DNA of 64,000 nt from Candidatus Polarisedimenticolaceae bacterium. GTDB lineage: Bacteria; Acidobacteriota; Polarisedimenticolia; Polarisedimenticolales; DASRJG01. This document shows positions 9,775-23,239 of the stretch, in pieces; position 1 is the stretch's first letter, and each line of letters opens with the position of its first letter. The stretch spans positions 372,001 to 436,000 of the forward strand of contig DASUCV010000022.1 in NCBI GenBank assembly GCA_036275915.1, written 5' to 3'. Under the pieces are notes generated by a model, which ran no database searches, was not told where the DNA came from, and saw only the letters and a list, made by a program, of their open reading frames with translations. The position numbers and the translations under genes are program-made.

Positions 9775-11040
9775 CTACGCAAAGCGACGTCGCAGAGACG
9801 CGGCCATAGCCGGGGGCGAGACGCGACCGAGCGTGATCGTCTCGGCGCCGACGAAGGTGGCCAGCGATCGAAACGCGTCCGCGGCACCGTCGAGCGCGAG
9901 GTCGCGGTCGAGAGAACCCCAGTCGGCCGCGGGAGGTCGCTTGCCCCGAGCGAACCAGGGCTCGAAGTGGATCTGCCGGATCTCGAGGAGACGCTCGGCG
10001 CGGTGAGTCTTGGCGTCGATCCTCCCGATCAGCTGGCCGTCATGGAAGAGCGGGAGCACGTAGTAGCCGTGCACCCGCTTGTGGCCCGGGGTGTAGACCT
10101 CGACGCGGTAGTCGAAGCCGAACAGGCGCTGGGCGCGCTCGCGGTGCCACAGGAACGAATCGAACGGCGCGAGCAGTGTGGTGCCGCGCGCGGCCACGCG
10201 CCGCTGTGCGGCGGCGCGCAGCGCCGGGAGATCGTCGGCGAGGGCGAACCACGGTGTCGTGCCGTGCTCGACGGCGACCTCGACGACTTCGCCGGCCGCG
10301 AGCGCCTCGGCGAGCGCCTTGCGGCGCTCCCGGATCTCCGTCCGAGGGAAGGTGAGGTACATGCGGAGATCGGTCGCCGTCGCGGCACCCATCGCATGCA
10401 GGGACCGGCGCAGGTGCCAGCGGCGGAACTCGTCGGCGCGCGGCGGCTCGGCAGCGAGCGCCTCACCCATGACCCTTGGCGCCAGATCGAAGCGCTTCTG
10501 GAAGTGAACCCGTGAATGGATCATCGTGCGCCCGCTCATCCACAGGTAATCGAGCGCGTGCGTGGCCGGCTTCCAATTCCACCATCCGCCGCCGCGCCGC
10601 TTGCGATCGTTTCCGAAGTCGGCGTTCCCGAGCGGTCCGCGGGTCGTGATCTCGGCCTCGACCTGGGCGACGAGCGCCGCGTTCTTCCTGAGCCATTTCC
10701 CCCAAGCCCGGCTGCGGAGCGAATAGTCGAGCATCGCCCGCCGCCAGTGGCCGAAATGATCGGTCGGCACCAGGCAGGCCGCGTGAGCCCAGTACTCGAA
10801 CATCGCGCGCCGCTCGTAGACGAGACGGTCGAGGACACGACGGTCGTACGGTCCGAAGCGGCTCCACACGGTCAGGTAGTGCGCGCGGTCGATCACGTTG
10901 ATCGAGTCGAGCTGGATTCCACCCGTGTCGGAGGCGAACCGGACGAGGTTGCGCTCCGTCAGCCGCCGCCGGCGCGGGTCGCGGAGATGCTGGCGCTCGA
11001 GGAACAGCGCGGCCACGGCGCGGAGAGGAATCTTTGCCAT
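9775..11040 (-). CDS. YcaQ-like winged-helix DNA glycosylase
   Basis: A 421-residue cytoplasmic protein matching the HTH_42/YcaQ family (PF06224; formerly DUF1006). The N-terminal segment contains GGIQLDSINVIDRAHYLTVW with the QLD motif typical of the family, followed by FGPYDRRVLDRL and EYWAHAACLVP; the C-terminal part has LLAPFDSFLWHRER and GYYVLPLFHDGQLIGRIDAK. E. coli YcaQ (AlkX) unhooks interstrand DNA cross-links and alkylated bases, and the length fits. The ATG at 11040 lacks a ribosome-binding site but has TACATT 9 nt upstream. It lies upstream of rlpA in the same direction with a 52-nt gap. Substrate range in this organism is not known. Confidence 0.85.
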   Translation of the reverse strand: MAKIPLRAVAALFLERQHLRDPRRRRLTERNLVRFASDTGGIQLDSINVIDRAHYLTVWSRFGPYDRRVLDRLVYERRAMFEYWAHAACLVPTDHFGHWRRAMLDYSLRSRAWGKWLRKNAALVAQVEAEITTRGPLGNADFGNDRKRRGGGWWNWKPATHALDYLWMSGRTMIHSRVHFQKRFDLAPRVMGEALAAEPPRADEFRRWHLRRSLHAMGAATATDLRMYLTFPRTEIRERRKALAEALAAGEVVEVAVEHGTTPWFALADDLPALRAAAQRRVAARGTTLLAPFDSFLWHRERAQRLFGFDYRVEVYTPGHKRVHGYYVLPLFHDGQLIGRIDAKTHRAERLLEIRQIHFEPWFARGKRPPAADWGSLDRDLALDGAADAFRSLATFVGAETITLGRVSPPAMAASLRRRFA

Positions 11041-14189: not shown

Positions 14190-14276
14190 GCGCGGTTGCC
14201 GGGCCGGGGGTGGGGTGTTAGCCTCGCCGCGCGGCCGCGGGGGCGGACTCGCCTCGTGGTCTGCGCGGAGTCTCGG

Positions 14277-14954
14277 ATGGCCGGACCGTTCACGTTTCCG
14301 CATCCGATCGGCACGATCTTGGACGCGCTGGTCACGTCCCCGGATCCCGTTTTCGTCACCGACCGGTCGAATCGGATCGTCTGGTGGAACGCGAGCGCCG
14401 AGCATCTCCTGGGGTTCAAGGCGCACGAGGTGCTGGGACTGCCGTGCGCGGCGATGCTCCAGGGATGCGATGCCCACGGGAACCGCTATTGCTCCGACAA
14501 TTGCCCGATCACGCAGCTCGCGATGAGGCACGAGCCTGTCCGGAACTTCGAGCTGACGCTCCGCGCGAAGGGCGATCGTGAGCTCGACACGGACGTCAGC
14601 GTGCTTCATCTGGCCGCGCCGCCTCCCGACTTGTTCTTCCTCGCGCACATCGTCCGGCCTTCACGACGCCGGGAGAAGAGAGCGCCCGAGCGGTCTTCCG
14701 AGGAGACTCCCCCGCCGCGACCGACCCTTTTGACCGTCCGCGAGTCCGACGACGCGCGGGCCAGGAAGCTCACGGCGCGCGAGATCGAGGTGCTGGGCAT
14801 GCTTGCGGCCGGCAACCCCACGGCCGAGATCGCGTCGCGATTGAGCATCTCGGCGCTGACGGTCCGCAACCACGTCCAGAACATCCTCGACAAGCTCGAG
14901 CTGCACTCCAAGACCGAGGCCGTCGCCTTCGCGTTCCAAAAGCACCTGATCTAG
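14277..14954 (+). CDS. PAS-LuxR transcriptional regulator with a cysteine cluster
   Basis: A 225-residue regulator. An N-terminal PAS domain (about residues 15-125; DPVFVTDRSNRIVWWNASAE) carries four cysteines in a compact segment (PCAAMLQGC, then YCSDNC near residue 70). A linker leads to a GerE/LuxR helix-turn-helix (about 160-222; LTAREIEVLGMLAAGNPTAE and VRNHVQNILDKL). There is no receiver domain, so the PAS is presumably the sensor, and the cysteines could bind a metal or cluster or respond to redox. The start at 14277 follows GGAG; an in-frame ATG at 14196 adds only a basic shadow. It lies 95 bp upstream of the respiratory operon in the same orientation and may control it. Confidence 0.85.
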   Translation: MAGPFTFPHPIGTILDALVTSPDPVFVTDRSNRIVWWNASAEHLLGFKAHEVLGLPCAAMLQGCDAHGNRYCSDNCPITQLAMRHEPVRNFELTLRAKGDRELDTDVSVLHLAAPPPDLFFLAHIVRPSRRREKRAPERSSEETPPPRPTLLTVRESDDARARKLTAREIEVLGMLAAGNPTAEIASRLSISALTVRNHVQNILDKLELHSKTEAVAFAFQKHLI

Positions 14955-15049: not shown

Positions 15050-16462
15050 ATGAGCCACGCCCGACCGATCGCACGCTGTCTGACGCTCGCCATGGTCTCC
15101 TTCGCCGTCGTCCTCGGAGCGCACCGACCGGCCTCCGCGATCCCGGCATTCGCGCGCAAGTACCAGACGTCCTGTCAGACGTGCCACGTCGTGTTTCCGA
15201 AGCTGAACCCGTTCGGAGAGGCCTTCCGCCTGAACGGTTACCGCATGCCCGCCGAGACCGAGGAGGAGATCAAGGAGACGCCGGTCTCGCTCGGCTCGGA
15301 GGCCTACAAGAAGACGTGGCCTTCGATGGTCTACCCGAGCACGATCCCCGGACACGTTCCCCTCGCGATCAACATCAAGATGGCCGACGTCTACGCGTCC
15401 CAGACCGACGGGACGAACCGCACGATCACGAGGAACGACTTCCAGTTCCCCCAGGAGGTCAACCTCTTCGCCGCGGGGACGTTCGGCGACACCTTCGGCT
15501 ATCTCGCCGAGCTGACGTTCGAGAACGGGGCCGGGGTGAGCATCGAGCGCGCGCAGCTCACCGCGAACTCCCTCTTCGGCGCCGGGCACGCCGTCAACTT
15601 CAAGGTCGGCATGTTCGCGCCCGACCTGGAGGACGGCTTCCACGAGATGTGGCTGATGACGAACAACGGCATCGACTCGTTGTTCACCTACAACCCGATC
15701 GGCCCGAACGGGGGGACGGGGACCGCGGAGGAGGGGGGCGGCATCTCGCTCCCCGAGAACGTCAAGGCGATCGAGTTCTACGGGGTGGCGAAGCACCGGC
15801 TCTTCTATACGCTCGGCGTCACCGATGGGCTCGGGCAGGTCTCGACCGATCCCGGCTCCAACCCGCAGAGCACCGGCAACGACGTCCACAGCGCGAAAGA
15901 CTGGTACGCGCGCGTGGACTACAAGTTCGGCGGCATGGGTCTCGACGGCGACACGACCGGGAAGACCCTGCCGCCCGAGAACTGGCGGGAGAGCTCCGTG
16001 CGCGTCGGCCTGCTCGGCTACTACGGGACCGGAAACGACGTCGTGTTCCACGAGTTCGACGATCTCGGCAACCCGACGTTCGACGTGATCGATCGCCGCT
16101 ACGTCCGCGCCGGGCTCTACGCCTCGTGGCTCTGGCGCGATCTCAACGTCTTCGGCGTCTACCTCCACGGCAAGGACGATCTGACGACGACCGATCTCAC
16201 GACCGCCGCGGTGACCCAGCCCAACCCAACCTACGACGCCTGGTTCGTCCAGGCCGACTACGTGATCCGGCCGCCTTTCCAGGTGTCGCTCCGGTACGAG
16301 GACGTCGCGCCGGGCGACCCCTCCGCGGCGTCGATCCGCGTCGGCAATGCGAACTTCACCTATCTCATCGTCGCGAACATGAAGCTCATGCTCGAGTACC
16401 AGCGCGACCTTCACGAGTCGAAGAACTACAACGCCGCCGCCGTCCTGCGGTTCGCGTTCTAG
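15050..16462 (+). CDS. Single-heme cytochrome-porin fusion (Cyc2-like architecture)
   Basis: A 470-residue outer-membrane protein. After a signal peptide ending at ASA comes a c-type heme motif CQTCH (about residues 41-45) within a short segment (VFPKLNPFGEAFRLNGYRM). From about residue 70 to the end alternating beta-strands make a barrel finishing in RFAF, the usual C-terminal aromatic signal for outer-membrane insertion. One N-terminal heme followed by a porin is the architecture of Cyc2 iron oxidases, although membership of a true Cyc2 cluster cannot be judged by eye. The start is set by GGAAAGGAG 6 nt before the ATG at 15050. It leads the operon and lies 10 bp before the cupredoxin gene. 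It probably passes electrons across the outer membrane. The alternative is a porin with a structural heme. Confidence 0.75.
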   Translation: MSHARPIARCLTLAMVSFAVVLGAHRPASAIPAFARKYQTSCQTCHVVFPKLNPFGEAFRLNGYRMPAETEEEIKETPVSLGSEAYKKTWPSMVYPSTIPGHVPLAINIKMADVYASQTDGTNRTITRNDFQFPQEVNLFAAGTFGDTFGYLAELTFENGAGVSIERAQLTANSLFGAGHAVNFKVGMFAPDLEDGFHEMWLMTNNGIDSLFTYNPIGPNGGTGTAEEGGGISLPENVKAIEFYGVAKHRLFYTLGVTDGLGQVSTDPGSNPQSTGNDVHSAKDWYARVDYKFGGMGLDGDTTGKTLPPENWRESSVRVGLLGYYGTGNDVVFHEFDDLGNPTFDVIDRRYVRAGLYASWLWRDLNVFGVYLHGKDDLTTTDLTTAAVTQPNPTYDAWFVQADYVIRPPFQVSLRYEDVAPGDPSAASIRVGNANFTYLIVANMKLMLEYQRDLHESKNYNAAAVLRFAF

Positions 16463-16472
16463 GAGGACCATC

Positions 16473-17051
16473 GTGAGAATCCCGATCGTCACCGGCCTCG
16501 CCCTCGTGCTCACCCTCCCCGCGGTCGCGGGGGAAATCCACGGCACCGTCGCGTGCAAGGGCGTGCGCGACAGCGCGGGCGCCGTCGTCTACGTCGATGC
16601 GATTCCCGGCAAGACGTTCCCGGCACCGCAGGAGCACCAGAAGATCAACCAGCAGAATCTCGTGTTCGACCCGCACGTCCTTCCAGTGCTCGCCGGCACG
16701 ACGGTCGATTTCCTCAACTCCGACGCGGTGCAGCACAACGTCTTCTCGCCGGATGCCTGCGCCGAAAAGTTCAACCTCGGGACGTGGCCCAAAGGTCAGA
16801 CACGCAGCTACACGTTCAAGAAGGACTGCGTCGCGACGCTGCTGTGCAAGGTCCACCCTGAGATGGAGGCGTTCGTCGTCGCGGTGCCGACGCCGTACTT
16901 CGCCGTCACGAAGGCCGACGGCTCGTACAAGATCGCGGACGTTCCGGACGGCGCCTACACGCTCAAGGTGTGGCATCCCAAGCTCAAGGCGGCGACGAAG
17001 CCGGTCACGGTCGCCGGCAGCACCGACGTCGGCTTCGAGATCGCGAGGTAA
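16473..17051 (+). CDS. Periplasmic cupredoxin with C-terminal carboxypeptidase-regulatory-like domain
   Basis: A 192-residue exported protein with a signal peptide (to about residue 19). Residues 20-135 form a plastocyanin-like domain. The type-1 copper ligands are readable as His in VQHNVFS (about 90) and Cys-x2-His-x2-Met in CKVHPEM (about 124-130), the spacing found in amicyanin. Residues about 140-190 (KADGSYKIADVPDGAYTLKV) form a small beta-sandwich like the carboxypeptidase regulatory domain. GGAGG precedes the start. Lying between a heme porin and a Rieske/cytochrome b gene set, it is best read as a soluble electron shuttle across the periplasm. Confidence 0.85.
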   Translation: MRIPIVTGLALVLTLPAVAGEIHGTVACKGVRDSAGAVVYVDAIPGKTFPAPQEHQKINQQNLVFDPHVLPVLAGTTVDFLNSDAVQHNVFSPDACAEKFNLGTWPKGQTRSYTFKKDCVATLLCKVHPEMEAFVVAVPTPYFAVTKADGSYKIADVPDGAYTLKVWHPKLKAATKPVTVAGSTDVGFEIAR

Positions 17052-17057
17052 GAGGCC

Positions 17058-18893
17058 GTGGCCGAGGCCAGCCGCGAGTGGCTCGAGCGGAACTTCCCCT
17101 GCAAGTGGGCGTGTCCCGTGCACACGGAGGCGGGCAAGTACGTCGCACTGATCGCCGAGGGGAGGTTCCGCGAGGCGTACGCGGTCGCGCGCCGGCCCAA
17201 CCCCCTCGCCTCGATCTGCGGCCGGATCTGTGCCGCGCCGTGCGAAACCGTCTGCCGCCGCGGCGAGCTCGACGCGCCGATCGCGATCCGCGCGCTCAAG
17301 CGGTTCGTGACCGAGAAGTTCGGCGTCGAGAGCATGATGGACTTCTCCGTCCTCTCCGAGATCTACGGCAGGAGAACGGACCGCCACTCGGAGCGGGTCG
17401 CGGTGATCGGCTCGGGTCCGGCGGGGCTGGCCTGCGCGCACGACCTCGCGCTCCGGGGATACCCCGTCACGATCTTCGAGGGGGCCCCGGTCGCCGGCGG
17501 GATGCTGCGCCTCGGCGTCCCCGAATACCGGCTCCCGCGCGCGCTGATCCAGCTCGAGATCCACGCCATCCTCTCGCTCGGGGTCGAGCTGCGGGTTGAC
17601 GCGCGCCTCGGCAGGGACTTCACGCTCCGCGATCTGCGCCAGCAGGGGTACGCGGCCGTGTTCCTCGCAGTAGGGGCGATGCGCGGCCGCGAGCTGGCGG
17701 TGGAAGGGATGGATCTGGACGGCGTGCTCAAAGGGGTCGACTACCTCCTCAACGTCAACCTCGGCTATCGGGTGGAGATGGGGAGCCGCATCGTCGTCAT
17801 CGGAGGCGGCAACGTCGCCCTCGACGTCGCACGCACCGCGGCGCGCGGCGGCGAGCAGGAGAACCTCCAGCGCAACCTTTCGGTCGTCCAGGCGCTCGAC
17901 GTCGCCCGGAGCGCCATCCGGTTCGGGGCGCGCGAGGTCACCGTCTGCTGTCTCGAATCGGAGCGCGAGATGCCCGCCGCTCGCGAAGAGATCGAGGAGG
18001 CGAAGCGGGAAGGCATCACGTTCCTCCATCGCGTCGGCCCGAAGCGGCTCGTCGGTGAGCACGCGCGCGTGACCGGAGTCGAGCTCCTCACCGTGTCGCG
18101 GGTCTTCGACGAGCGCGGACGTTTCTCGCCCCGCTTCGTCGACGGCTCGGAGTCGATCCTGCCGGCCGACACCGTCGTCGTCGCGATCGGGCAGACGGGC
18201 GACCTCAGCTTCCTCAACGAGGAGGACGGCGTCGCGACGAGCCAGGGGAGGATCGTCGTCGACCCGGACACCCTGGCGACCACCGCCGCGGGAATCTACG
18301 CCGGCGGCGACGCCGCGTTCGGCCCGAGGATCGCGATCACCGCGGTGGCCAACGGAAAGCGCGCCGCCCGATCGATCGACGAATTTCTCCGCGGGCGCTC
18401 CCTGCCCGACGAGGACCCGGTCGTGGAGATCGACGTGGAATCGCGCTACCGCCGCACGCTCGACTACGAGTCGATCCCGCGGCAGTCCCCCCCGACGAGG
18501 CCGATCGATCGCCGCATCGGGATCGCGGAGGTCGAGGAGTGCTTCAGCGAGCCGGCGGCCAGACGCGAAGCCACGCGGTGCCTCCACTGCTGGACCAACA
18601 CGATCTTCGATCAGAGCGAGGCCGAAGGCACCGAATGCATCCTGTGCGGTGGCTGCCAGGACGTTTGTCCCGAGAGCTGCATCGAGATCCGCACCGCGGC
18701 ATCGATCCGCTCGGCGCCGGCGGGATCGCGGATGCTCGCTCCGGTCTTCGTCGCCGGCGAGCCGTGGGGCTCGATCATCCTCAAGGACGAGGAGACGTGC
18801 ATCCGCTGCGGCCTCTGCGCGCGGCGATGTCCCGCCGGCACGATCACGATGCAGAGCTTCGCGACCAAGGAGCCCGACCATGTCGTCGCGTGA
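17058..18893 (+). CDS. GltD-like NAD(P)H/FAD oxidoreductase fused to a 2[4Fe-4S] ferredoxin domain
   Basis: A 611-residue cytoplasmic flavoprotein starting at GTG 6 nt after the cupredoxin stop. The N-terminal Fer4_20 domain has cysteines in CKWACPVH and CGRICAAPCETVC (to about 65). An FAD Rossmann fold follows (VAVIGSGPAGLACAHDLA near 115-132), then GGMLRLGVPEYRLPR and a second nucleotide site (IVVIGGGNVALDVARTAARG near 246), as in NADPH-glutamate synthase small subunit and NfnB. The C-terminus carries two [4Fe-4S] sets, CILCGGCQDVCPESC and CIRCGLCARRCPAG (about 533-595). No glutamate synthase large subunit is nearby. Its position before the Rieske gene, overlapping it by 14 nt, says it serves the cytochrome b complex. 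The direction (NAD(P)H oxidation or uphill reduction) is not decided by sequence. Confidence 0.85.
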   Translation: MAEASREWLERNFPCKWACPVHTEAGKYVALIAEGRFREAYAVARRPNPLASICGRICAAPCETVCRRGELDAPIAIRALKRFVTEKFGVESMMDFSVLSEIYGRRTDRHSERVAVIGSGPAGLACAHDLALRGYPVTIFEGAPVAGGMLRLGVPEYRLPRALIQLEIHAILSLGVELRVDARLGRDFTLRDLRQQGYAAVFLAVGAMRGRELAVEGMDLDGVLKGVDYLLNVNLGYRVEMGSRIVVIGGGNVALDVARTAARGGEQENLQRNLSVVQALDVARSAIRFGAREVTVCCLESEREMPAAREEIEEAKREGITFLHRVGPKRLVGEHARVTGVELLTVSRVFDERGRFSPRFVDGSESILPADTVVVAIGQTGDLSFLNEEDGVATSQGRIVVDPDTLATTAAGIYAGGDAAFGPRIAITAVANGKRAARSIDEFLRGRSLPDEDPVVEIDVESRYRRTLDYESIPRQSPPTRPIDRRIGIAEVEECFSEPAARREATRCLHCWTNTIFDQSEAEGTECILCGGCQDVCPESCIEIRTAASIRSAPAGSRMLAPVFVAGEPWGSIILKDEETCIRCGLCARRCPAGTITMQSFATKEPDHVVA

Positions 18894-19350
18894 GAGCCGG
18901 GGGATGAAGCGCAGAGACTTCCTGACGATGGCGGGCGTCGGCGCCTGCGCGTGCGCGGCCGCGGGAGCGGGCGTCGTCACGCTCGACTTTCTCCAGCCGA
19001 AGGTGCTGTTCGAGCCGCCGACCCGCTTCGTCGCCGGAACCGCCCTCGAGTTCCCGGAGGGCACCGTCCGGTTCGACCGCGAGCATCGCGCCTACGTCAT
19101 CGGCGCTTCGGGCGGCGTCTACGCGATGACCGCGGTCTGCACGCACCTGGGTTGCATCACGCGCTTCCTCTCCGACGAGAACGTCATCGCGTGCCCCTGC
19201 CACGGGAGCCGCTTCGACCTCGAAGGCAACGTCGTGCACGGGCCGGCGCCGCGCCCCTTGCCCTGGATCGAGATCAAGCCCGACGGTGCGGGCAACCTCG
19301 TCGTCGACACGGCGTCGTTGGTCCCCGCCGGGACGATCGTGCGCGTATGA
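18880..19350 (+). CDS. Rieske [2Fe-2S] protein with Tat signal
   Basis: A 156-residue iron-sulfur subunit. The twin-arginine signal is [10 protein letters not shown] (about residues 9-19), and the uncleaved signal would anchor it in the inner membrane. Cluster ligands lie in CTHLGC (about 87-92) and CPCHGS (about 106-111), followed by the Pro loop [15 protein letters not shown] stands 7 nt before the ATG at 18880; the downstream ATG at 18904 is poorly spaced, so the 14-nt overlap with the FAD gene is probably real. It should oxidise quinol at the Qo site and reduce a c-type cytochrome. Confidence 0.95.
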
Positions 19351-20117
19351 AAGCGCCGACGGCCTCCGGCGTCTCGGCCTGGATCCGGGACACGAGCGTC
19401 TACCGCTCGATCGTGCGGCACGGAGTCGCGGACACGAACTTGAATCGGGCGCTCGTGGTCATGGAGAACCTCTTCCTCCACGTGCATCCGATCAAGGTGC
19501 GGGCCAAGACGCTCCTGACGAAGCACACGTACTGGCTCGGCGGCATCACGCTCGCATGCACCGCGATCCTTTACGCGACCGGCATCCTGCTGATGTTCTA
19601 CTACCACCCTTCCGTCCCGCAGGCCTATCGCGACATGAAGGAGCTGCAGTTCGTCGTCGACGACGGTCTCTTCCTGCGCAATCTGCATCGGTGGGGCGCC
19701 CACCTCATGGTCTTCGCGGCGTTCGCGCACATGCTGCGCGTCTTCTATCACCGCGCCTACCGCCCGCCCCGTCAGTTCAACTGGGTCGTCGGCGTCGTCC
19801 TCCTTCTCGCCACGCTGTTGCTGTCGTACACGGGCTACCTTCTGCCGTGGGACCAGCTCGCGTTTTGGGGGGTCTCGGTCGGAACGAACATGGTGCGCGC
19901 GGCGCCCTGGATCGGCGAGCCGTTCCGGTTCCTGCTCCTCGGCGGGCACGTCGTCTCGGAGAACGCGCTGCTCCGCTTCTACGTCCTCCACTGCGTCGTG
20001 CTTCCCGTGACCCTCATCCTCCTGGTCTCGGTCCACATCTGGCGCGTGCGGAAGGACGGGGGCGTCCAGGGCCCCCCCGAGCCCAGCGCCCCGCTGCGTG
20101 AGGAAGAACTTCCGTGA
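19347..20117 (+). CDS. Cytochrome b, N-terminal part (b6-like, four helices, bis-heme b)
   Basis: A 256-residue membrane protein overlapping the Rieske stop by 4 nt (ATGA). Helix B has the heme ligands 14 residues apart (LHRWGAH and [10 protein letters not shown]). Helix D has them 15 apart (LHCVVLP and SVHIWRV), the cytochrome b6 spacing rather than bc1. The segment [19 protein letters not shown] aligns closely with b6 around its Cys35, but the cysteine that binds heme ci in b6f is replaced by Trp. [12 protein letters not shown] is the usual Qo-side cd region. It forms the core of a quinol:cytochrome oxidoreductase with the next gene. Confidence 0.95.
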
Positions 20118-20824
20118 GCGATCTCCCGCCCATCGTCATCGAGGAATCGAACGATCCCCTCGCCGTGCCGCGACGCGTCGCCCTCGTCCGTCCCGACATC
20201 AGGCCCACGGTGAGGAAGGAAGACGAGAGGTTCGTCATGACGTTTCCGCACCTCGTCGTGCGGGAGATCATCCTCGTCCAAGCCGTCACGATCGTGCTCG
20301 CGATCGCGGCCCTCCTGTTCGACGCCCCCCTCCAGGGAATCGCCAACCCGACGGAGACGCCGAATCCCGCGAAGGCTCCCTGGTATTTCCTAGGCCTCCA
20401 GGAGCTGCTCCACTACTTCCCGCCCGTCGTCGCCGGCGTGCTCCTTCCGGGACTCGTCGTCGTGGCGCTCGTCGTCATCCCCTACGCCCGGGTCAATCTC
20501 GCGGCCCGCCCGTTGTGGGAGGACCGCCGGCCGCGCCGGATCGCGGGCATTCTCGTCACGCTCCTCGCCGTGACGGCCTTCGCCGTCCTCTTCGACTGCT
20601 GGCCGGTGGCCGCCGCGACGGTCGTCGTCGGTGCGCTCGTGCTGGCGGCCCGGGGAGGCGAGCGCGCCGGGGCGATCCGGAGCGCCCTGGCCCACGTCAC
20701 GCTGCCGGAGTGGATCATGACGTGGTTCGTCGTCGTGGCGAGCGTCTTGACGGTCATCGGCACCTTCTTCCGCGGCCCGGGCTGGTCGTTCGTTTGGCCC
20801 TGGGCCTCCTTCCGCTCGTGGTGA
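20114..20824 (+). CDS. Cytochrome b, C-terminal part (subunit IV-like) with APWY motif
   Basis: A 236-residue membrane protein with about five hydrophobic segments, starting at GTG that overlaps the previous stop by 4 nt. A hydrophilic N-terminus of 50 residues is followed by the first helix and then [20 protein letters not shown]. This corresponds to the Qo-site PEWY region of cytochrome b/subunit IV, but PEW is replaced by APW, so the catalytic Glu is missing. Such variants are known in menaquinol-type complexes. Two or three further helices follow, ending in a short Trp-rich tail (SFVWPWASF). It completes the split cytochrome b. Confidence 0.9.
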
Positions 20825-20834
20825 AAGGACGACC

Positions 20835-22844
20835 GTGAGCCTGAGACGGACCTTCGCGGCGACGAGCTTCCTCTTCCTCGCGGTGCTCGCGATCTCTCCC
20901 GCGAAGAACGCCTTCCGGCCGCACCGCGCCTATCAGAAAGAGTTCCGCTCGCTCGGCGTTGCGCGTGCGCGCAGCCTCAAGGAGGCCCAGCGGTACGAGA
21001 CGATGCCGATCGCGATCCGCCAGATCTGGCTCCAGCACCTCGACGACCGTGTGGACCGCTGTCCGACCTGCCATCTCGGCGCCGCCGACGCGGCGATGGC
21101 CGGGGCGCCGGAGCCGTACCGCCTCCATCCGGCGACCGCGCACACGCCGATGGAGTTCGATCGGTTCGGGTGCACCACCTGTCACGGCGGCCAAGGTCAA
21201 GCCACGAGCCGCGCCGAGGCGCATGGCACCGCGGAAGACGCGGGCCCGCCGATGCTCCCGATGGAGAACCTCGAGGCCGGATGCGGGCGCTGCCATGCCG
21301 GCGAGTCGATTGCAGGGGCGCCGGTCCTCTCCCGCGGCCGCGCCGTGATGACGCGCTACGGCTGCTACGCCTGCCATCTCGTCCGCGACCACGAGACCTT
21401 CCGCTCCGAGGCGCCCCCGCTGAGGACGATCGCGCTCAAGACCGGAGCCCCGTGGCTCCGCCTGTGGCTCAAGAATCCGAAGGCGGTCGATCCCAACACG
21501 ACGATGCCGCGGTTCGATCTCTCGGACGACGACATCGAGGAGCTGTCGCACGCGCTCTTCGCGAGGACCCCTTCGCCCGCCCTCGCCGCCGCCATCGCAT
21601 CCGCCGAGCGCGAGCCGGCGGGAGTCCCCGCTTCCGGGAAGAAGCTCTTCGCGGAGGCGCGTTGCATCAGCTGCCACACCGTCGAGGGCAAGGGACACGG
21701 GACCGCTCCCGAGCTGTCCAAGGTGGCGACTTCGGCGACGCGAGGCTGGCTCCTGGCCTTCCTGCGCGATCCGCACGCGTTCAACCCCCGCACGCGTATG
21801 CCGCAGTACGGCTTCTCGGAATCCGAGTCGCGCGACGTCGTCGCGTACCTCGAAGACGAGCTGCGCGATTTCGACGCGCCCAAGGACATCCTCGAGCCAC
21901 TCCACGTCAACCTCACCCTCGCCGAGAAGGGCGAGAAGACGTTTCGCATGCGGGGCTGCGTCGCCTGCCATCCGGCGGAGAACGCGCAGGCGGCCGAACG
22001 GTTCGGCCCCGACCTCAACGGGATCGGCGACAAGAAGGCGACGTCGCTCGATTTCGGGAAGCGAGACGACCTTCCTCGCACCGCACCGGCGTGGCTGGCG
22101 GCAAAGCTCGAGCAGCCGCATTCGTTCGCGCCGGGCCTCAAGATGCCGACGTTCGAGTTACCCGCCGACGACGTGCAGGCCGCCGTCACCGCACTCCTCT
22201 CGCTGGGCGCTCAGCCGGTCCCCGAGGCGTATCGCACGGAGGCGCACGGGACGCCGTCGCTCGTTCCCGGCGGCGACGTCGGGCGGCTCGTCGACCGCTA
22301 CCGCTGCCTGTCGTGTCACATGATCGGTAACGCAGGCGGCGACATCTCGACGGCGCCGCTGACGTTCGAGGGGAGCAAGGTCCGCCGTGCCTGGCTCGTC
22401 GACTATCTCCTCGTCTCCTATTCGATTCGCCCGATCCTCGAGGAGAGGATGCCGATCTTCCGGATGCCGCGGGCAGACGCGGAGCTCCTGGCCGGTGCGA
22501 TCACCAGCCTCTATGTCGATCCCCGCATCCCGCAGGACCCGTTCGCCGGGCGACCCGCGTCCGACGCGGACGCCGGAGAGGGACAGCGCTTGTACACGAC
22601 CCTCGGGTGCCGCGCCTGCCACATCATCGGCCCGACCGGCGGCTACGTCGGCCCACCGCTGACCGACACGCAGACGCGGCTCCAGCCCGGCTGGGTGTTC
22701 ACGTGGCTCAAGGGTCCACAGAAGTGGCGCGCCGACGTGCGCTGCCCCGACTATGGGCTCACCGACACAGACGCGCTGAGATTGACGGCCTATCTCGAGA
22801 CGCTGAAAGCACCGGCCGCCGACGCGACGGGTGCCAAACGATGA
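20835..22844 (+). CDS. Membrane-anchored octaheme cytochrome c
   Basis: A 669-residue periplasmic cytochrome with an N-terminal hydrophobic anchor or uncleaved signal (about residues 8-24). Eight CxxCH heme motifs are visible: CPTCH (about 76), CTTCH (115), CGRCH (152), CYACH (178), CISCH (278), CVACH (376), CLSCH (491) and CRACH (592). The first four are closely packed; the last four sit in separate class-I-like domains with Met-containing segments such as TMPRFD, RMPQYGF, KMPTFEL and RMPIFRM. It starts at GTG with AAAGGA upstream, 10 nt after subunit IV, and overlaps the next gene by 4 nt. It replaces cytochrome c1 or f as electron acceptor or donor for the Rieske head. Confidence 0.92.
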   Translation: MSLRRTFAATSFLFLAVLAISPAKNAFRPHRAYQKEFRSLGVARARSLKEAQRYETMPIAIRQIWLQHLDDRVDRCPTCHLGAADAAMAGAPEPYRLHPATAHTPMEFDRFGCTTCHGGQGQATSRAEAHGTAEDAGPPMLPMENLEAGCGRCHAGESIAGAPVLSRGRAVMTRYGCYACHLVRDHETFRSEAPPLRTIALKTGAPWLRLWLKNPKAVDPNTTMPRFDLSDDDIEELSHALFARTPSPALAAAIASAEREPAGVPASGKKLFAEARCISCHTVEGKGHGTAPELSKVATSATRGWLLAFLRDPHAFNPRTRMPQYGFSESESRDVVAYLEDELRDFDAPKDILEPLHVNLTLAEKGEKTFRMRGCVACHPAENAQAAERFGPDLNGIGDKKATSLDFGKRDDLPRTAPAWLAAKLEQPHSFAPGLKMPTFELPADDVQAAVTALLSLGAQPVPEAYRTEAHGTPSLVPGGDVGRLVDRYRCLSCHMIGNAGGDISTAPLTFEGSKVRRAWLVDYLLVSYSIRPILEERMPIFRMPRADAELLAGAITSLYVDPRIPQDPFAGRPASDADAGEGQRLYTTLGCRACHIIGPTGGYVGPPLTDTQTRLQPGWVFTWLKGPQKWRADVRCPDYGLTDTDALRLTAYLETLKAPAADATGAKR

Positions 22845-23239
22845 GCGCGCGGAGCCTCGTCATCGCGTTCGTGGCTCTCGGTCTCGTCGCCTGTGCGCGC
22901 AAGAGCGCGCCTCCGAAGCCCGCGGATGCCGCCGCGGCGGTGCCGCCGAGCTATGAGATGCGACTGGGACGGGACACCTACGTCCACTACTGCGCGACCT
23001 GCCACGGCGACGCCGGCGCGGGAGACGGGTTCAACGCTTACAACCTGGACCCGCATCCCCGCGACCTCTCCGACGCTGCGGTTCAGAAGAAGACCGATGC
23101 GCAGATCGCCGATGCGATCAGCCGTGGGGGCAGCGGTGTCGGGCTGTCGAGCCTCATGCCTCCGTGGGCCCACACGCTCTCCGATCGCCAAGTTGCCGAG
23201 GTGGTGCTCTACGTGCGTAGCTTGAAAAAGAGTCGGTAG
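22841..23239 (+). CDS. Class I cytochrome c lipoprotein
   Basis: A 132-residue lipoprotein (lipobox LVACAR, Cys about residue 18) with one heme motif CATCH (about 52-56) and a Met ligand candidate in SSLMPPW (about 104). The fold and length fit cytochrome c551/class I. It overlaps the octaheme gene by 4 nt (ATGA) and is the last gene of the operon. Tethered to a membrane, it could move electrons between the octaheme protein and a terminal oxidase or the porin. No strong terminator follows. Confidence 0.92.
   Translation: MSARSLVIAFVALGLVACARKSAPPKPADAAAAVPPSYEMRLGRDTYVHYCATCHGDAGAGDGFNAYNLDPHPRDLSDAAVQKKTDAQIADAISRGGSGVGLSSLMPPWAHTLSDRQVAEVVLYVRSLKKSR

Follow-up and report, generated by a model that had tools for sequence, protein, structure and literature searches.

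The question raised by this locus is whether the open reading frame at 15050-16462 (+), which lies directly upstream of genes for a Rieske/cytochrome b complex, encodes a porin of the Cyc2 type, and in which direction electrons would pass through it. The frame is exact over these coordinates, starts with an ATG preceded by AAAGGAG, and encodes 470 amino acids within the 64-kb stretch of DNA analysed (the window). Motif, alignment, AlphaFold2 model and profile comparison point to a Cyc2-type fused monohaem cytochrome-porin.

Sequence, predicted fold and relation to Cyc2

The protein opens with a predicted signal peptide of 30 residues (15050..15139, +) ending in ASA, for which the AxA rule predicts cleavage before I31. 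The sequence AIPAFARKY (15137..15163, +) matches the Cyc2-defining motif, and is followed by the haem c site CQTCH (residues 42-46; 15173..15187, +), invariant in the family alignment, and by PKL (15197..15205, +), a PXL motif with its proline four residues after CxxCH. The N-terminal segment containing the sole CxxCH of the protein reads AIPAFARKYQTSCQTCHVVFPKLNPFGEAFRLNGYRMP, while the region following the signal peptide is IPAFARKYQTSCQTCHVVFPKLNPFGEAFRLNGYRMP, after which a beta-rich part extends to the terminal RFAF. A six-frame search of the window gives a single occurrence, at 15137, of the combined pattern A.P.[FW][AS]R[QK][TYF]...C..CH...P.L.

When short peptides of the protein were searched against 84,980 species genomes, 22 loci were recovered, all from Acidobacteriota and at 47-60% identity, one of which is cut by a contig end; three named Geothrix strains are among them. 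Since CxxCH, P32, F34 and R36 are invariant in the alignment of these close relatives, the family and its motif are, on sequence grounds, far beyond chance. It was found that the whole cytochrome-porin matches no family in Pfam or NCBIfam (the latter to E 1), and that the haem domain by itself has a sub-threshold Cytochrom_C hit as its sole Pfam match. Neither the protein nor its family profile found a relative in a sequence search of the PDB, and none was present in the viral contigs searched.

The remainder of the protein (residues 105-470; 15362..16459, +) is predicted to form a 16-strand outer-membrane barrel. An AlphaFold2 model (m3e53b8a6322d) built from 22 alignment rows has 16 long strands, counted as those of at least 9 residues, with a mean pLDDT of 62. 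Values for the barrel are mostly 50-88 (~70-88 in the C-terminal half), while the haem domain (residues 25-101) is at ~30. A second run with the mature protein gave a poorer model with a haem domain that was no better (again ~30). The top VIA-align match was OprP (2o4v; Z 19.5, rmsd 3.5, 260 residues), with OprO (4rjw) at Z 18.4 and the other Foldseek/VIA-align matches being general 16-strand porins. The model and the single CxxCH hence bear out what the initial annotation had described, one N-terminal CQTCH followed by a barrel ending in RFAF; it had also looked to an AlphaFold model for a haem plug inside a 16-strand barrel, and neither run positions the haem domain.

Cyc2 proteins have been defined by AXPXFAR[Q/K][T/Y] upstream of CXXCH, PXL downstream and a length of at least 365 amino acids, with a 16-strand barrel modelled on OprO/OprP and a poorly conserved porin part (Keffer et al., PMC8406198). 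Here, AIPAFARKY conforms to the first motif, with KYQTS supplying the five-residue spacing between R and C; the stretch CQTCH-VVF-PKL combines the single CXXCH with a PXL four residues downstream; the length of 470 residues exceeds the minimum; and a 16-strand OprP/OprO-like porin is provided by a model of moderate confidence.

The published criteria also ask for sequence similarity to Cyc2 at E 1e-5 or better, and the comparison here was with Cyc2-like proteins. Uncharacterised proteobacterial ones, which carry the haem motif, align with the cytochrome-porin by BLASTP (E 6e-15) and hhalign (E 3e-15, 189 columns), as does an equally uncharacterised, haem motif-containing protein of a Methylocystis plasmid by tblastn (5e-8). 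The aligning plasmid proteins derive from Methylocystis, Ideonella, Acidiphilium, Caballeronia and Paraburkholderia, and two of the five have a one-residue departure in the haem motif. Their genes adjoin those of c-type cytochromes and, in one case, of a HiPIP. With the haem domain removed, the signal to these proteins drops to E 0.0046 (probability 7.6). As judged by these comparisons, the haem domain is homologous to that of the proteobacterial proteins, whereas the value obtained without it leaves homology of the barrel to Cyc2 no more than suggested. The weak barrel signal agrees with the poor conservation of the porin part stated in PMC8406198.

The exact motif, haem-domain homology and OprP/OprO-like barrel together indicate that, by the criteria of PMC8406198, the predicted cytochrome-porin belongs to the Cyc2 superfamily as a distinct Acidobacteriota clade. 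In a maximum-likelihood tree it falls inside a supported 27-row clade, from which the five plasmid-borne proteobacterial proteins are set apart as a group with a long branch. Assignment to cluster 3 is likely, given that Acidobacteriota Cyc2 were placed there in PMC9671151; Leptospirillum Cyt572 also groups with Acidobacteria and Nitrospira homologues. The role of cluster 3 homologues has been deemed the most uncertain. The one-haem-plus-barrel Cyc2 plan proposed in the initial annotation is thus upheld by the motif, the homologous haem domain, the OprP-like barrel and the electron-carrier neighbours. Its suggestion of a wholly new clade is not, as cluster 3 homologues had already been reported in Acidobacteriota (PMC9671151), and Cyc2 homologues outside known iron oxidisers were already known as well.

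The conserved motif has a second possible meaning. In all 72 Acidobacteriota and proteobacterial rows, the residue preceding X-P-X-F (position -1) is A, G or S, usually as part of AxA; X1 is hydrophobic (I, V, L, F or Y) and is followed by P at +2 and by F or W at +4; the first haem cysteine invariably lies 11 residues from X1. Besides the CxxCH histidine, no His or Met conserved between the tiers of the family was found. In PDB entries of cytochrome f the chain opens with YPIFAQ, and the amine of its Tyr1 ligates the haem. A tentative reading is that AXPXFAR comprises a signal-peptidase site and the new N-terminus, with the free N-terminal amine serving, in the manner of cytochrome f, as sixth ligand of the haem. 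Cytochrome f was rejected as a homologue, since its spacing is 20 residues, unlike the 11 of the Cyc2-type rows, and the profile search gave no cytochrome f match; any likeness would hence be convergence, not homology.

The operon and its conservation in Acidobacteriota

Downstream of the cytochrome-porin, all on the + strand, are genes for a secreted type-1 copper (cupredoxin) protein with a carboxypeptidase-regulatory-like tail (16473..17051; Pfam Copper-bind over the cut-off) and a GltD-like FAD/NAD(P) oxidoreductase with an N-terminal Fer4_20 domain and two C-terminal 4Fe-4S motifs (17058..18893; Pfam Pyr_redox_2, Fer4_20 and Fer4; NCBIfam NF009410 at 446 bits, under the cut-off of 516). 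These are followed by a Rieske 2Fe-2S protein (18904..19350; Pfam Rieske, with CTHLGC...CPCHG in its sequence), a b6-like cytochrome b (19347..20117; Pfam Cytochrome_B; ExtP NF040969 at 255 bits, under the cut-off of 290) and an ExtQ-like membrane protein resembling subunit IV (20114..20824; Pfam Cytochrom_B_C; ExtQ NF040970 at 59 bits, under the cut-off of 150). An octahaem c-type cytochrome with eight CxxCH (20835..22844; Pfam Cytochrom_C) and a small monohaem cytochrome c that may carry a lipoprotein signal, LVAC (22841..23239; Pfam Cytochrome_CBB3), complete the set. The gaps are, in order, 10, 6, 10, -4, -4, 10 and -4 nt, and no promoter or terminator above chance was found around the operon. 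The cupredoxin has the ligand pattern HNVF...CKVHPEM, and H...C..H..M is present in all neighbouring cupredoxins listed; the eight CxxCH are kept in every full-length octahaem orthologue.

A PAS-LuxR (GerE) regulator (14196..14954, +; Pfam PAS and GerE) lies upstream, separated from the cytochrome-porin by 95 nt. Its PAS domain contains CAAMLQGCDAHGNRYCSDNC, with the cysteine pattern CxxxxxxCDxxGNRYCxxxC. Orthologues adjoin most close-clade operons, with the Cys motif kept in most, and the regulator could be a redox or metal sensor. Elsewhere in the window, the frame at 9775-11040 (-) resembles, by eye, a YcaQ-type winged-helix DNA glycosylase.

A profile search with the cytochrome-porin gave matches in 109 of 396 Acidobacteriota genomes. 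Scores exceed 700 bits in a close clade and range over ~100-430 bits in a mid tier, while in a third, far tier the match is chiefly to the haem domain. Three of the far-tier haem-motif matches (L097 5777-8596, L096 6622-9324 and L095 7214-9169) lie in very long frames of 650-940 amino acids. The complete eight-gene order is present in ten of the close-clade loci retrieved, others being cut by contig ends. Mid-tier loci of several families also keep it, and the order persists across classes, down to ~30% identity. Variation is seen in the membrane complex, with cytochrome b and subunit IV seemingly fused (one frame matching both) in L017, L072, L081, L060 and L063, and the NAD(P) subunit missing from L060, L063 and L071, in which Rieske, b and octahaem genes are present. 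One genome (G005) holds two operon copies (L063 and L064), of which just one includes the GltD-like subunit. In L017 (4486-17125), L076, L077 and L073, the cytochrome-porin is surrounded by two or three cupredoxin genes.

A full-length octahaem protein was found in 37 of the 396 genomes, at 39 loci, and at 33 of these a Cyc2-type match lies on the same contig within 8 kb. Cyc2-type matches occur in 35 of the 37 octahaem genomes compared to 109 of 396 overall (P ~1e-19), a value that overstates the linkage because it takes no account of relatedness and because members of the operon went into the octahaem profile. The association with bc operons that the initial annotation had entertained is strong and phylum-wide. 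While the clade is not wholly new, no description of a Cyc2-type protein with a cupredoxin and NAD(P)-linked Rieske/b operon was found in the open-access literature.

Comparison with known systems

The cytochrome-porin shares its signal peptide, motifs, spacing, single haem and 16-strand OprP-like barrel with Cyc2 of Acidithiobacillus and Mariprofundus, and with cluster 3 including Leptospirillum Cyt572; cupredoxin or c-type cytochrome partners are common to both. It differs in forming a deep separate Acidobacteriota clade, as compared with published criteria and uncharacterised Cyc2-like proteins, in a barrel sequence that is not confidently alignable, and in belonging to a Rieske/b and not a rus/cox operon. 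The Acidithiobacillus ferrooxidans uphill chain of Cyc2, rusticyanin, Cyc1 and pet (bc1) likewise combines an outer-membrane monohaem Cyc2, blue copper protein, c cytochromes and a bc complex towards NAD. There, however, rus and pet form separate operons and cox genes accompany cyc2, whereas here a single operon holds the bc complex together with its own NAD(P) oxidoreductase.

The Geobacter ext operon (ExtHIJKLMNOPQS), which serves selenite/tellurite reduction, similarly combines an outer-membrane porin with a Rieske protein, an ExtP-like cytochrome b, an ExtQ-like subunit and multihaem cytochromes. It contains a rhodanese and other multihaem cytochromes, with no cupredoxin reported, and ExtI is reported to be haem-less; the haem motif thus sets the cytochrome-porin apart from the ExtI class of porins without a cofactor motif. 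Kuenenia stuttgartiensis Kustd1480-1485 and Kuste4569-4574 have in common the b6-like cytochrome b, subunit IV, Rieske protein, hexa/octahaem cytochrome c and an NAD(P) oxidoreductase with 4Fe-4S clusters, a likeness of parts list only; these complexes have an anammoxosome setting, and no outer-membrane cytochrome-porin or cupredoxin is reported for them. In MtrB/PioB/MtoB a large barrel sheathes a separate multihaem cytochrome, unlike the 16 strands, fused monohaem domain and lack of any NCBIfam match found here. An MtrB/PioB-like barrel gene elsewhere in the genome (G000:C20:29219-31219; 174 bits, under the model's cut-off) may provide a second outer-membrane conduit.

Direction of electron flow and alternative roles

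A Cyc2-type porin most likely relays electrons between an extracellular partner and the NAD(P)-linked Rieske/b complex. Our leading account, which we believe about as much as we doubt, infers for the cytochrome-porin an outer-membrane location, a haem plug, redox partners, a substrate and an inward direction of flow, as follows. The 16-strand barrel would reside in the outer membrane with the N-terminal c-haem domain facing the periplasm, and the haem would exchange single electrons with a small redox partner that is extracellular or enters the pore, dissolved Fe(II) being the best guess. Electrons would pass from the porin to the cupredoxin and c-type cytochromes of the operon, which would connect to the Rieske/cytochrome b complex with its cytoplasmic FAD/4Fe-4S NAD(P) oxidoreductase. 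The likeliest direction is inward, so that electrons taken up would supply quinone and NAD(P)H. This direction is favoured because the Cyc2 proteins characterised so far are Fe(II) oxidases, and because the blue copper carrier rusticyanin stands beside Cyc2 in Acidithiobacillus. Two haem-copper oxidases are encoded in the genome, as is the assembly of cytochrome c, while no RuBisCO was found in it; an autotrophic iron oxidiser is hence not implied. The three loci that lack the NAD(P) subunit (L060, L063 and L071) count against this account.

The reverse direction is a serious rival, albeit one we hold to be rather improbable. In this case the Rieske/b complex would oxidise quinol and part the two electrons: one would reach NAD(P)+ via the FAD subunit, and the c cytochromes and the cupredoxin would carry the other to the haem in the outer membrane, which would reduce an extracellular acceptor such as Fe(III), Mn(IV) or humics. 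Generation of NAD(P)H has been proposed for the Kuenenia complexes of matching composition, the Geobacter ext operon is reductive, and the lack of RuBisCO also fits. Geothrix is a genus known for Fe(III) reduction, and the presence of the operon in these close relatives speaks for the outward direction no less than for the inward one. The inward route is more readily reconciled with the Fe(II) oxidase activity of characterised Cyc2 proteins, and a lone haem set back inside a pore of 16 strands is better matched to dissolved partners than to minerals.

It is also conceivable, if unlikely, that the protein is a porin selective for some soluble anion or metal complex, with the haem as a local reductase or sensor in an ExtI-like role that involves no respiratory extracellular transfer. 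The barrel is indeed nearest to phosphate-selective OprP/OprO, ExtP and ExtQ are the models to which cytochrome b and subunit IV of the operon score closest, and ExtI is itself a porin encoded alongside a Rieske/b complex. However, ExtI is reported to lack haem or any other cofactor motif, no NCBIfam model matched the cytochrome-porin, and the haem domain is its most conserved part. The FeGenie authors noted porin false positives at similar scores, which could suggest an ordinary porin whose CxxCH is present by chance or vestigial and has no redox role; those porins were without haem motifs, whereas here CxxCH and its flanking motif are invariant across tiers and linked phylum-wide to an electron-transfer operon. 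This reading is disfavoured, and we consider it very improbable.

Under the proposed relay between an extracellular partner and the Rieske/b complex, the operon could couple the cell surface to the supply of NAD(P)H in many Acidobacteriota that are not known to oxidise iron, thereby linking the unusual anammox-type Rieske/b complexes with the cell surface. The combination of Cyc2, cupredoxin and NAD(P)-linked Rieske/b complex constitutes a concrete, testable pathway, including in cultured genera such as Geothrix, and suggests that electron exchange through a single-haem porin belongs to the energy metabolism of many Acidobacteriota.
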